Below are positions 18,884 through 22,931 of a DNA stretch of 60,737 nucleotides, one piece after another. The stretch comes from Actinomycetes bacterium. GTDB taxonomy: Bacteria > Actinomycetota > Humimicrobiia > Humimicrobiales > Humimicrobiaceae. Numbering within the stretch: position 1 is the first letter of the stretch; each line of letters begins with the position of its first letter. The position numbers and the translations under genes were made by a program. The notes beneath the pieces are model-generated. The model had not been told where the DNA came from. It ran no database searches and saw nothing but the letters and a program-made list of their open reading frames with translations. The stretch lies in NCBI GenBank assembly GCA_022396035.1, contig JAIOXO010000009.1, forward strand, positions 1 through 60,737. Direction: 5' to 3'.

Positions 18884-19666
18884 ATGAAAGCTATAGATCT
18901 AAGCGGCAGGGTGTCATTTATTACCGGCGGATCGGGACAAATAGGCAGGACTATATGCAAACATATGGCCCTTTGCGGGGCCAGGGTAGCTTTTAGCTAC
19001 TACAGCCAAAAAGAACAGGCAGAGAAACTAAAGCAGGAAATTGAAACAAGTTATGGCCAACAGGTATTGGCTCTCAAAGCAGATATTACCGATAAAGATT
19101 CTTTAGAACAGGCCAAAAAATTAATTAACCAGAATATGGGAAAAGTAGACATAATTGTCAATAATGCAGTAATACAGTATGAATGGAAAGAAGTCATAAA
19201 ACAGGATATACAGAGTTATGAGGGCCAGTTCAGGTCATCGGTTCTCCATAATGTATTTATGGCTCAGGTTTTCGTGCCGGATATGATAGAACAGAAATAC
19301 GGGAGAGTAATAGGCATAAATACCGAGTGTTCCATGCAGGCCTTCAGGACCCAGTCTGCCTATATCTCCGGAAAGAGGGGAATGGATGGAGTATTGAGGG
19401 TGCTGGCCAGGGAAGTAGGGACGCACAACATTACTGTAAACCAGGTAGCCCCCGGGTGGACACTTACCGATAGCTGCAGGGATGCTGACGGCAGCGAGGC
19501 CAATATAAACCAGGATTTTCCTTATATAGATGCAGTTCCTATGGGCAGGAGGGGATCGGATGAGGATATAGCCAATGCAGTCTGTTTTTTAGCATCGGAT
19601 TTAGCCGGGTTTATTACTGGGGTTTATCTGCCGGTTACTGGAGGCAATGTAATGCCCTGCATATGA
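18884..19666 (+). CDS. SDR-family (FabG-like) NAD(P)-dependent oxidoreductase
   Basis: This is a 260-residue classical short-chain dehydrogenase. It has a TGGSGQIG cofactor motif (14-21), an NNA motif (NNAV, 93-96) and the YxxxK active site Tyr160/Lys164 (YISGK). The position normally held by the catalytic serine, 13 residues before Tyr160, is Thr147 (INTECS), with Ser150 close by. It is therefore a slightly divergent SDR. The C-terminal GRRGSDEDIANAVCFLASD and TGGNV segments are normal. GGGAGG precedes the ATG. It seems to be a single-gene unit; the substrate cannot be told from sequence. Confidence 0.88.
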   Translation: MKAIDLSGRVSFITGGSGQIGRTICKHMALCGARVAFSYYSQKEQAEKLKQEIETSYGQQVLALKADITDKDSLEQAKKLINQNMGKVDIIVNNAVIQYEWKEVIKQDIQSYEGQFRSSVLHNVFMAQVFVPDMIEQKYGRVIGINTECSMQAFRTQSAYISGKRGMDGVLRVLAREVGTHNITVNQVAPGWTLTDSCRDADGSEANINQDFPYIDAVPMGRRGSDEDIANAVCFLASDLAGFITGVYLPVTGGNVMPCI

Positions 19667-19710
19667 GGTAATTTTGCAGACCCTTTTTTAAAATAAATTG
19701 CTGTCGATAG

Positions 19711-19739
19711 TTGACTTAAAAGTTAGGTAAAGTTAAAAT
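19711..19739 (+). promoter_or_regulatory. Candidate promoter of the rny leader RNA
   Basis: TTGACT (19711-19716) and TAAAAT (19734-19739) are separated by 17 bp. A transcript starting near 19746 would carry a ~280-nt leader before rny, including the folded region at 19832-19948 and the terminator at 19974-20002. The intergenic DNA between 19667 and 20023 contains no gene. Confidence 0.55.
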
Positions 19740-19831
19740 AGTTAACAGATTATAAATTTTTAATATAGTTAAAAATATTGTTTGATTTTCGATTATTGGC
19801 AGCAGGAATAACTAATTTAAGTTTTAGATAA

Positions 19832-19948
19832 ATTTTATAAGTATAGGAAAGCATGAGGGTATCAGTAGCAAAATTGAAAGGGGAATTTTTTAAAAAATTA
19901 AATACCTAAACTCCTTGATATCCGGGGGTGCACTAATACTTATAAAAT
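19832..19948 (+). ncRNA. Unclassified structured leader RNA upstream of rny
   Basis: A perfect 13-bp helix joins 19832-19844 with 19936-19948. Nested inside is an 8-bp helix of GGGTATCA (in the segment after GCATGA, about 19858-19865) with TGATATCC (about 19917-19924, one G-U pair). Within that is a hairpin from the self-complementary run AATTTTTTAAAAAATT. Conserved-looking purine-rich single strands (AGGAAAGCATGA and CGGGGGTGCACTA) flank the inner helix. A terminator follows 25 nt later, directly before the rny ribosome-binding site. That is the layout of a riboswitch or protein-sensing attenuator. I do not recognise any known riboswitch consensus. Confidence 0.5.
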
Positions 19949-19973
19949 AGAAAATACAGCGGCAATAATATTT

Positions 19974-20002
19974 AAAGTCAGGCAATATGCTTGGCTTTTT
20001 TT
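19974..20002 (+). terminator. Terminator in the rny leader (attenuator)
   Basis: A 10-bp stem (19974-19983 with 19989-19998, two G-U pairs) with a 5-nt loop runs into seven Ts (19996-20002). It sits only 22 nt before the rny start, so readthrough must be regulated or partial for rny to be expressed from upstream. Confidence 0.75.
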
Positions 20003-20023
20003 ATTAGAGAGAGGATGGTAGAA

Positions 20024-21568
20024 GTGGTAGAATTATTAAGGATTGGCGGCATAGGGCTGGTAATACTTATCATCGGTTTTGTAATAGGTTTCTTTTATCG
20101 AAAATTCATTATTGACTCCAAGCTGAATTCAGCAGAACAGAAAGCAACAAGCATTTTGGGCGATGCCGAAAAAGAAGCCCAAACCTTAAAAAAAGAGGCT
20201 TTACTGGAGGGTAAGGAAGAAATACAGAATCTCAAACTTCAGGCAGATCAGGAAATAAAAAGCCTGAGGATTGAGATGCAGAAGATGGAAAACCGCCTTT
20301 TATCCAGAGAAGATGCTAATGAAAAGAAAACCCATTATCTGGAGAAAAAAGAGTACAGCTTAAATTCCAGGGAAAAAGAAATTGACCAGAAAAATGAACA
20401 GCTTGATGAAATACTCAAGAAAGAAGTATTACGCCTGGAGGCCATTGCTGAGCTTACCAGGGATGAAGCAAAAGCTGTGCTTATGAAAAAGATGGAAGAA
20501 AAGGCCAAATATGAAGCAGCCAAGGAGATTAGAAAAATAGAAACCAGGCTCAAGGAAGATGCGGACAAGATGGCCAAGAAGATTATATCCCAGGCCATAC
20601 AGAGATGTGCCATAGACCACGTATCGGAAACCACGGTAAGTGTGGTTAACCTGCCCAATGACGAGATGAAGGGTAGGATAATTGGAAGGGAAGGAAGAAA
20701 CATAAGGGTTTTTGAAAACCTGACCGGCATCAATATTATTGTAGATGATACACCGGAAGCAGTAATCCTTTCCTCATTTGACCCGGTACGAAGGGAGATT
20801 GCCAGGGTAACTCTGGAAAACCTTATAGTGGACGGGCGTATACATCCTGCCAGGATAGAGGAAATGTATGAAAAGGCTTCTAAGTTAATAAATAATGAGA
20901 TAAAGCTGGAAGGTGAGCAGGCGATATTTGATACCGGCATTTCCGAGCTCAATCCGGGCATTATAAAAGTGCTGGGCAGGCTTAAATACAGGACCAGTTA
21001 TGGTCAGAATGTATTGATGCATTCCAAGGAAGTAGCTTATGTGTCAGGGATCATAGCTTCCGAGCTGGGCTATAATGTTAAGAAAGCAAAAAGAGCCGGG
21101 CTGCTGCATGATATAGGCAAGGCTCTAACCCATGACATTGAGGGTTCTCATGCCAAGATCGGGGCCGAGCTAGCCAGGAGGCTTCATGAAGATGAAGAGA
21201 TATGCCACTCCTTAGAGGCCCATCATAACGAAATTGAAGCTACCTCAATGCTGGATGTAATAGTACAGGCTGCTGATTCCATATCCGGCGGAAGGCCTGG
21301 GGCAAGAAGGGAAACACTGGAAAGCTATATCAAGAGACTGGAGACACTGGAGAATATTGCTACTGAATTTAATGGCATAGAAAAGGCTTATGCCATACAG
21401 GCGGGAAGAGAAATAAGGGTAATAGTCAAACCCGATGATGTTGACGAGGACATGTCGCTGGTTCTGGCCAGAGATATTGCCAGAAAAATTGAAAGTGAAA
21501 TGGATTATCCCGGACAGATAAAGGTTACAGTTATAAGGGAGAGCAGAGCTGTAGATTATGCAAAATAA
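20024..21568 (+). CDS. rny: Ribonuclease Y
   Basis: This is a 514-residue membrane-anchored endoribonuclease that starts mRNA decay. It has one N-terminal transmembrane helix (about residues 5-25) and a long coiled coil (about 35-195). A KH domain with [10 protein letters not shown] is at 217-226, and an HD domain with HD at 362-363 (LLHDIGK) provides the metal-dependent phosphodiesterase site. I use the GTG at 20024, 9 nt after GAGAGAGG; the ATG at 20015 abuts that site, and a TTG at 19991 lies in the terminator. It overlaps the next gene by 11 nt. Expression is probably controlled by the leader RNA and attenuator upstream. Confidence 0.95.
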
Positions 21569-22655
21569 TTCCGATATCAAGAAGTTCCTGGCAGACCTTA
21601 ATATGTCTGATGTGCTGAATGTTGAAGAAGATCTGGGGAATGGATTTGTAAAGCTTAAGATATCTGAGGCAGAAAGAAGACAGGCTCTCCAGGACATAAA
21701 TTGCGTGGAAGACATAATTGTTGAGCTTTTAAGAAACAGCAGGGATGCTGATGCCAAAAATATTTTTATAGGCACCAAAAAGCTGGGCGACAGTAAAAGG
21801 ATAATACATTTTATAGATGACGGTACCGGCATTCCTGAAAAATTCCAGAGGATTATTTTTGAATCAAGGGTTACCTCCAAGCTGGAAAATGCAAAAAAAG
21901 ATGCCTATGGGTTTCATGGACGGGGTATGGCCCTGTTTTCCATAAAACTTAATGTTGAAGAAATAAGCATAACTTATTCAGACCACCTGAAAGGAACCTG
22001 TTTTTTTGTATCAGTGGATTTAAATGATCTCCCAGAAAAAAAAGATCAGTCCCTGATGCCGCAGATTATAGAGACTGAAGAGGGCTTAACCTTGATTGGG
22101 GGAGTGAATAATATAATTAAAGCCATAATGGAATTTAAGTTCCAGAACCCAGGTATAAATATCTATTACGGCACTCCAACCCAGATACTGGCAACCATGA
22201 GAAGCATAGAAGCTGATTATCCCAGTTTTGGAGAATGGGAACAGGTAGTCAAATATATAAATTCCAACCATATTAAGATATTTGAAATGCCTCTGCTTAC
22301 TAACAACTATAATATACTGGAGCAGATCAGCCGCAATATAATGGGTATGGATATTTCACAGAGGAGCATACAGAGGACTATTTATGGTGAACTGCAGCCC
22401 CTGGAATGCATAAAAGTACAAGATCTGGAACCAGTAGAGAAAAAAGAAGAGAAAAAAAACCGCAATATCAAACTATATGATGAAATAGGACTGGTAAACA
22501 GGTTTAAACCAGAAGAAATAAAGGGTATAATTGAGACAGTCAGGCAGGAAGTTGACCGTATAGGAAAGAAATATTTCTTATCAGTACAAAATGTAGAATA
22601 CAAGAAGAAAAACAATAAAATATTTATAGAAATAGAATTAAAGCAAAAAGATTGA
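21558..22655 (+). CDS. GHKL-type ATPase-domain protein of unknown function
   Basis: This 365-residue protein has a Bergerat (GHKL) ATP-binding fold at residues 50-160. Its N box is [14 protein letters not shown] (Glu56, Asn60), its G1 box FIDDGTGIP (85-93) and its G2 box [10 protein letters not shown] (118-127), as in Hsp90, MutL and topoisomerase VI-B type proteins. The rest (residues 160-365) matches nothing I recognise and ends with a charged region (about 298-310) and a short mixed domain. There is no histidine-kinase phosphoacceptor domain. It overlaps rny by 11 nt and precedes spoVS by 15 nt, so a role linked to RNA decay or development is possible but speculative. Confidence 0.8.
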
Positions 22656-22670
22656 ATTTAAGGCAACAGA

Positions 22671-22931
22671 ATGAAACTTCTGAAGGTTTCTTCAAACTCA
22701 AAACCTAACTCGGTTGCAGGAGCTATAGCCGGTATAATAAGGAGTGAGGGCAAAGTGCAAATCCAGACCATAGGGGCTGGAGCGCTTAACCAGAGCATAA
22801 AGGGAATTGCCATTGCCCGCGGCTATATTGCGCCTACCGGCCAGGATCTGATTTGCACCCCATTTTTTAAGGATATTGAGGTAAATGGTGAGACCAAGAC
22901 TGCAATTGTTCTTACCGTTGAACCAAAATAA
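22671..22931 (+). CDS. spoVS: Stage V sporulation protein S family
   Basis: This is an 86-residue SpoVS protein of normal length, with the conserved start KLLKVSSNSKPNSVAGAIAG and the AIGAG-like and RGYIAP segments (TIGAGALNQSIKGIAIARGY). SpoVS is an Alba-fold small protein that affects sporulation and septation in Bacillus, but it is also conserved in many non-sporulating bacteria. It lies in the typical rny-spoVS-miaB order. Its presence alone is not evidence that this organism forms spores. Confidence 0.93.
   Translation: MKLLKVSSNSKPNSVAGAIAGIIRSEGKVQIQTIGAGALNQSIKGIAIARGYIAPTGQDLICTPFFKDIEVNGETKTAIVLTVEPK

Follow-up and report, generated by a model that had tools for sequence, protein, structure and literature searches.

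The window, the whole stretch of 60,737 nt that was analysed, is contig C9 of an Actinomycetes genome of 1.6 Mb and carries the gene rny of RNase Y, the enzyme that initiates mRNA breakdown, behind a leader that contains an intrinsic terminator (Table 1). The naming of the downstream gene as RNase Y in the first-pass annotation is borne out by its TIGR03319 profile match, so that the leader belongs to the RNase's own gene. Relatives of this RNase Y include those of Candidatus Humimicrobium, Candidatus Hydromicrobium and many genomes named 'Actinomycetota bacterium', and genes for RNase E/G and RNase J are also present in the window's genome. The mechanically called rny reading frame begins at TTG 19991, within the terminator; given the Shine-Dalgarno sequence further downstream, GTG 20024 is the likely start codon, and a GTG start with equal Shine-Dalgarno spacing is also found in G002 and G003. 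Downstream of rny follow genes for an ATPase and a small protein and then miaB, miaA and dapF, the rny-miaB interval (21558-22931) being taken up by the ATPase, with weak MutL/histidine-kinase similarity, and by the small protein, which we take to resemble SpoVS and for which NCBIfam gave no match. Since these genes come next, rny is, judged from gene order, probably the first gene of an operon.

Table 1. Features of the rny leader and the controlled gene, with positions in the window
Feature	Position	Strand	Basis
Promoter (TTGACT, 17-nt spacer, TAAAAT)	19711-19739	+	10/12 consensus matches
Strand A, antiterminator 5' strand (TATTGTTTGATTTTCGATTATTG)	19776-19798	+	pairing with terminator arm; covariation
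Interior domain with outer helix, nested helix and inner hairpin	19830-19948	+	minimum-energy fold
Candidate 18-codon leader ORF (MRVSVAKLKGEFFKKLNT)	19853-19909	+	AGGA just upstream; equal length in G002
Strand A', antiterminator 3' strand	19963-19987	+	overlaps terminator 5' arm and loop
Intrinsic terminator	19974-20002	+	stem 19974-19984/19988-19998, loop 19985-19987, U-run 19996-20002
Shine-Dalgarno sequence of rny (GAGAGAGG)	20007-20014	+	sequence
rny (RNase Y), controlled gene	20024-21568	+	TIGR03319, 724.9 bits (cut-off 454)

Terminator, antiterminator and interior of the leader

The terminator comprises 11 pairs including a G-U, a 3-nt loop and seven Ts and lies 21 nt ahead of the GTG, which keeps the terminator and its seven Ts as first described and corrects the earlier counts of 10 pairs and 22 nt. 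No other terminator-like site occurs in 19660-20060, a region in which shuffles yield 0.2. The element had originally been delimited as 19832-20002, an extent that omits both the promoter and strand A. Upon folding of the longer upstream region, ATATTGTTTGATTTTCGATTATTG pairs with CAATAATATTTAAAGTCAGGCAATAT. Strand A, located about 30 nt past the predicted start of the promoter (near 19746), forms 14 contiguous pairs with the 5' arm and loop of the terminator and a further 7 pairs upstream. As the 3' strand of the A:A' helix contains the entire 5' arm of the terminator, the two structures are mutually exclusive. Tested as a terminator/antiterminator attenuator, the leader thus has both a 5'-UTR intrinsic terminator and an alternative helix that uses the terminator 5' arm.

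In an equilibrium model of the window leader, the terminator had a probability of 0.005 in the intact RNA and of 0.93 without strand A, with similar values if the RNA was cut halfway through the interior (0.92) or if A was shuffled (0.93), while shuffling of the interior raised it from 0.005 to 0.23. Among 25 leaders of the family, the intact RNA gave a terminator probability below 0.2 in 16 and of 0.30-0.83 in 9, and upon removal of A it was at least 0.91 in all 25. Folding during transcription should shift the balance further towards the antiterminator than at equilibrium, since A' is made before the 3' arm of the terminator.

Between the two strands lies the interior domain, for which a 13-bp closing helix, a nested 8-bp helix and a hairpin had been described. 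All three are recovered in the minimum-energy fold, the outer helix (19832-19844/19936-19948) as a perfect 13 bp and the nested helix (19857-19864/19916-19923) with one G-U among its 8 bp. The energy of this fold is -44.7 compared to -34.7 +/- 3.8 for shuffled sequences (z = -2.64), with 5 of 200 shuffles being equally good. In our reading, the outer helix holds A and A' near each other in the window.

Regarding specificity within the genome, raw duplex energy proved to be a misleading measure, as it gives good scores to GC-rich pseudo-terminators in coding DNA, and was dropped in favour of contiguous pairing with the terminator arm. In this test rny ranks first, but with only 22 sites in 460 kb (a 400-kb genome sample, L163-L182, plus the window) its power is low. 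These 22 are all the confident intrinsic terminators in the sampled 460 kb, and the window's genome seems to make little use of this type of signal.

Conservation within and beyond the family

The family, relatives of Ca. Humimicrobium within the Actinomycetota, was searched across 35 genomes, in 28 of which rny is mostly complete. Enough upstream DNA is available at 26 loci (25 of the main set and L162), and in each of them strand A is complementary to a terminator-overlapping A'; A, A' and terminator are thus kept in 26/26, and the promoter as well wherever it is sequenced. In 24 of the 25 loci, and also in L162, a TTGACT-type promoter precedes A by 48-68 nt, the remaining locus, L044, being one where the contig stops before the promoter region. 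Wherever the upstream DNA of a family rny locus is intact, the terminator itself is retained. Two loci, L043 and L053, were negative at first look and revealed strong A strands farther upstream, at spacings to the terminator of about 593 and 657 nt, which are unusually long for an antiterminator; across the family this distance ranges from 194 to 657 nt. In L043 the sequence of A itself differs, CTCGATTTACAAATAGC being paired with GCTATTTGTAAATCGAG.

In alignment A1, with 22 distinct rows, 85.8% of the A:A' cells are standard pairs compared to 36-50% when the strands are slid, a percentage inflated by the positioning of the A core by best pairing. Nine pairs are changed on both sides, and the covariation score was reached by none of 500 shuffles. 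The terminator is paired in 99% of cells, likewise with covariation across the family, and in several columns (e.g. G/A, C/U, G/A) covariation is three-way, involving A, the terminator 5' arm and the terminator 3' arm. Strand A is the most conserved functional element of the leader.

The interior behaves differently. Its outer helix is recognisable in the three comparable species of the window's genus (3/3), not family-wide, and its inner helices, like its purine-rich strands, are common only to G000 and its sister species G002, the latter also being the only genome with a full-length alignment when the leader was used as DNA query. Between genera of the family, interior identity is 54.1% compared to 52.5% for shuffled sequences, and interior length varies more than threefold. 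The expectation that the helices would be conserved before rny in relatives thus holds for terminator and antiterminator and fails for the nested helices.

Outside the family, genomes of the same class (L059, L143-L146) have these elements in the same order ahead of rny, from the promoter through A, the interior and A' to the terminator, with unrelated sequence. An equivalent rny leader design with different sequence occurs in many further families of deep Actinomycetota. Examples are the pairing of AGGCTAATGCTTTTTGCTTATT with AATAAGCGAAAAGCATTAAGCC in L059 and of GGCAGAAATGCTTTACTAAGA with CTTAGTAAAGAGATTTTTGCC in f20. Of the loci outside the family with promoter and terminator, 22/33 reach <=0.05 against shuffled regions (other-family terminators, 12%). 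Unguided RNAalifold recovers A:A' in the f20 leader, where it forms the closing helix, and the f20 covariance model (R1) finds a single strong site per genome, each time before rny, including genomes outside its training (G071, as well as G041 and G042 of other families). These out-of-family checks are independent of the placement of A by best pairing in A1. Applied to the window's genome, the f20 model gave no site at all, the window leader included; on comparative grounds, we regard the two leaders as one design whose sequence has diverged. No such terminator was found at the rny loci of several other Actinomycetota families, f4, f9, f38 and f46 among them, and of most Clostridia, and in many other families examined rny has no leader terminator. 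Weaker signs were seen in two Bacillota (L090 and L097; Peptococcaceae, Clostridia), where a promoter and a GGTT..GTGGGTTTG strand precede rny and the matching strand overlaps a AAACCGAGC terminator within about 95 nt. From such traces, an extension of the design beyond Actinomycetota is possible.

With a conserved terminator and an exclusive A:A' antiterminator, the initial proposal of a transcription attenuator directly before rny stands. Comparison and modelling give us high confidence that rny, with any genes cotranscribed with it, is under the control of a terminator/antiterminator attenuator, and this control may extend to the whole operon including miaB, miaA and dapF. The feedback device on RNase Y that had been suggested alongside is plausible, with comparison and modelling supporting its attenuator part.

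Candidate inputs to the attenuator

The attenuator geometry, the outer helix retained inside the window's genus and the hairpins conserved in leader interiors within f17 and within f20 would suit a classical attenuator or riboswitch, in which a protein or metabolite binds the interior and chooses between A:A' and terminator. We consider this unlikely, since the interior is unconserved between the genera of the family and very variable in length, so that no common binding site is visible and the A:A' helix is left as the only possible shared one; the conserved hairpins of f17 and f20 could nevertheless bind protein or ligand there. In agreement with its earlier description as unclassified, the window leader gave no match to the Rfam 15 covariance models at gathering score, nor did the rny loci of 14 relatives, and at relaxed thresholds the best weak local matches had E >= 0.26; the scan for a known family thus returned none. 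The unconserved interior, the negative Rfam search and the lack of a general leader peptide together argue against a metabolite aptamer. A new metabolite riboswitch is not supported, as a conserved aptamer core is not seen among orthologous leaders, and neither is the ligand-riboswitch reading of 19832-19948.

Conservation limited to the competing helices, together with an equilibrium balance that varies among species, would also be compatible with a constitutive attenuator, one that lacks a specific sensor and provides a fixed read-through or responds to temperature or to the speed of RNA polymerase. However, a promoter alone could set a fixed level more simply, a costly leader conserved across many families suggests a signal, and autoregulation is the rule wherever RNase Y and RNase E have been studied (PMC10303841, PMC10989929), rendering this reading rather improbable.

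Attenuation by a leader peptide, where translation of a short interior ORF would decide between the helices, is suggested by the 18-codon ORF with its AGGA in the window and in G002, whose version, MRVSNKQLKGVFLIKLNT, has identical length and stop position. It shows several amino-acid changes, though, and the underlying codon differences between the window and G002 include several non-synonymous ones. Moreover, Shine-Dalgarno-preceded ORFs occur in 19 of 46 leaders compared to 14.2 expected from shuffling, most genera have no such ORF, and no peptide is common to genera. With no conserved translated ORF with regulatory codons among the 46 leaders, we rejected this type of attenuator as highly improbable, and the 18-codon ORF is probably incidental. 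A 22-23-codon ORF ending in ..LLMIILVK recurs in several g7 genomes (L035, L036, L037, L048, L055). Finally, the 20-30 bp duplex at the leader ends might serve RNase III as a processing stem for trimming the rny mRNA and overlap the terminator incidentally, which is very hard to reconcile with the overlap with the terminator 5' arm being kept across families despite unrelated sequence.

Leader integrity as a proposed signal

Instead, we favour an attenuator that senses the integrity of its own leader, a reading of the system as a whole for which we see the balance as even. It is preferred because the conserved requirement is that the 5' end pairs with the terminator arm; an unconserved interior and a distance of 194-657 nt are as expected if continuity alone matters. 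Comparison and modelling support a transcript that starts shortly before strand A, long-range A:A' pairing that in the intact leader favours the antiterminator and read-through, and release of the terminator when A is lost. In the proposed model, the signal would be the physical continuity of the leader. RNase Y that is active and unoccupied by other substrates would cut the nascent leader within its AU-rich and unconserved interior, so that with the 5' fragment A would be gone, the terminator would form and rny transcription would end. Scarce or occupied RNase Y would leave the leader whole and rny expressed, amounting to negative feedback without an aptamer. Given the topology of A, A' and terminator, termination upon cutting gives a feedback of the right sign.

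We infer the cutting step, its timing and the nuclease by analogy, from the precedents of B. subtilis rny and Synechocystis rne. That sensing works by RNase cleavage of the leader at all is, in our estimate, evenly poised, and that RNase Y itself is the cutter slightly less assured. Somewhat more tentatively still, we suggest an aptamer-free integrity sensor, reading RNase Y cuts as termination, that would be ancestral in rny of deep-branching Actinomycetota and possibly in some Bacillota. Several points count against this model: RNase E/G or RNase J, both encoded, could instead be the cutter, the speed of cutting on nascent RNA is assumed, RNase Y is membrane-bound, and the 9 of 25 family leaders mentioned above have a substantial terminator probability though intact.

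It is an old question how the level of the enzyme initiating mRNA decay is set in cells, and what is known of RNase E and RNase Y autoregulation is mainly control of mRNA decay. In B. subtilis, RNase Y cleaves its own AU-rich 5' UTR at many sites and is reported to reduce its own expression in this way; there, regulation proceeds via decay of the mRNA following cleavages in its 5' UTR and early ORF, and no leader terminator or antiterminator is described (PMC10303841). The enzyme prefers to cleave after G in AU-rich RNA (PMC4608709). For rne of Synechocystis, likewise encoding a decay-initiating RNase, 5'-UTR cleavage is found alongside premature termination, estimated from measurements, as an inference, at 96% and relieved under UV stress, and negative feedback has been proposed; in contrast to rny, the enzyme is unrelated, terminator and coupling mechanism are undefined, and no antiterminator between 5' end and terminator is described (PMC10989929). 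The E. coli rne 5' UTR sensor (rne5) also senses enzyme activity in the 5' UTR of the main endonuclease gene, yet, as cited in PMC10303841 and PMC10989929, it acts on mRNA decay via a conserved stem-loop, and the window leader has no rne5 match.

Terminator/antiterminator attenuation is a mechanism of an already known kind, and T-box, trp and riboswitch attenuators equally use mutually exclusive helices involving the terminator 5' arm (PMC2965389). Unlike these, the rny leader has no conserved sensor domain or T-box motif, its antiterminator strand sits at the 5' end, separated from the terminator by as much as about 650 nt, and the controlled gene is rny. Neither the premature-terminator survey PMC2965389 nor the structured-RNA surveys PMC2864571 and PMC6429828 mention rny, and an rny attenuator was not found in the open-access literature searched. 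The rny leader therefore offers a concrete structure, conserved in many families, that would convert RNA cleavage into transcription termination. Integrity sensing, should it hold true, would give attenuators a new type of input and would explain an ancient regulatory leader whose sequence mostly varies freely, the very property that would hide such devices from ordinary riboswitch searches.

Within the interior of f20 leaders, a hairpin TTTAGTTTT-ACATAGATT-AAAACTAAA is shared (A2 columns 67-99; L192, L194-L196, L198, L199, L205, L206). Its loop ACATAGATT, AU-rich with a G in most members, is a candidate for an RNase Y cut site or a protein-binding loop.
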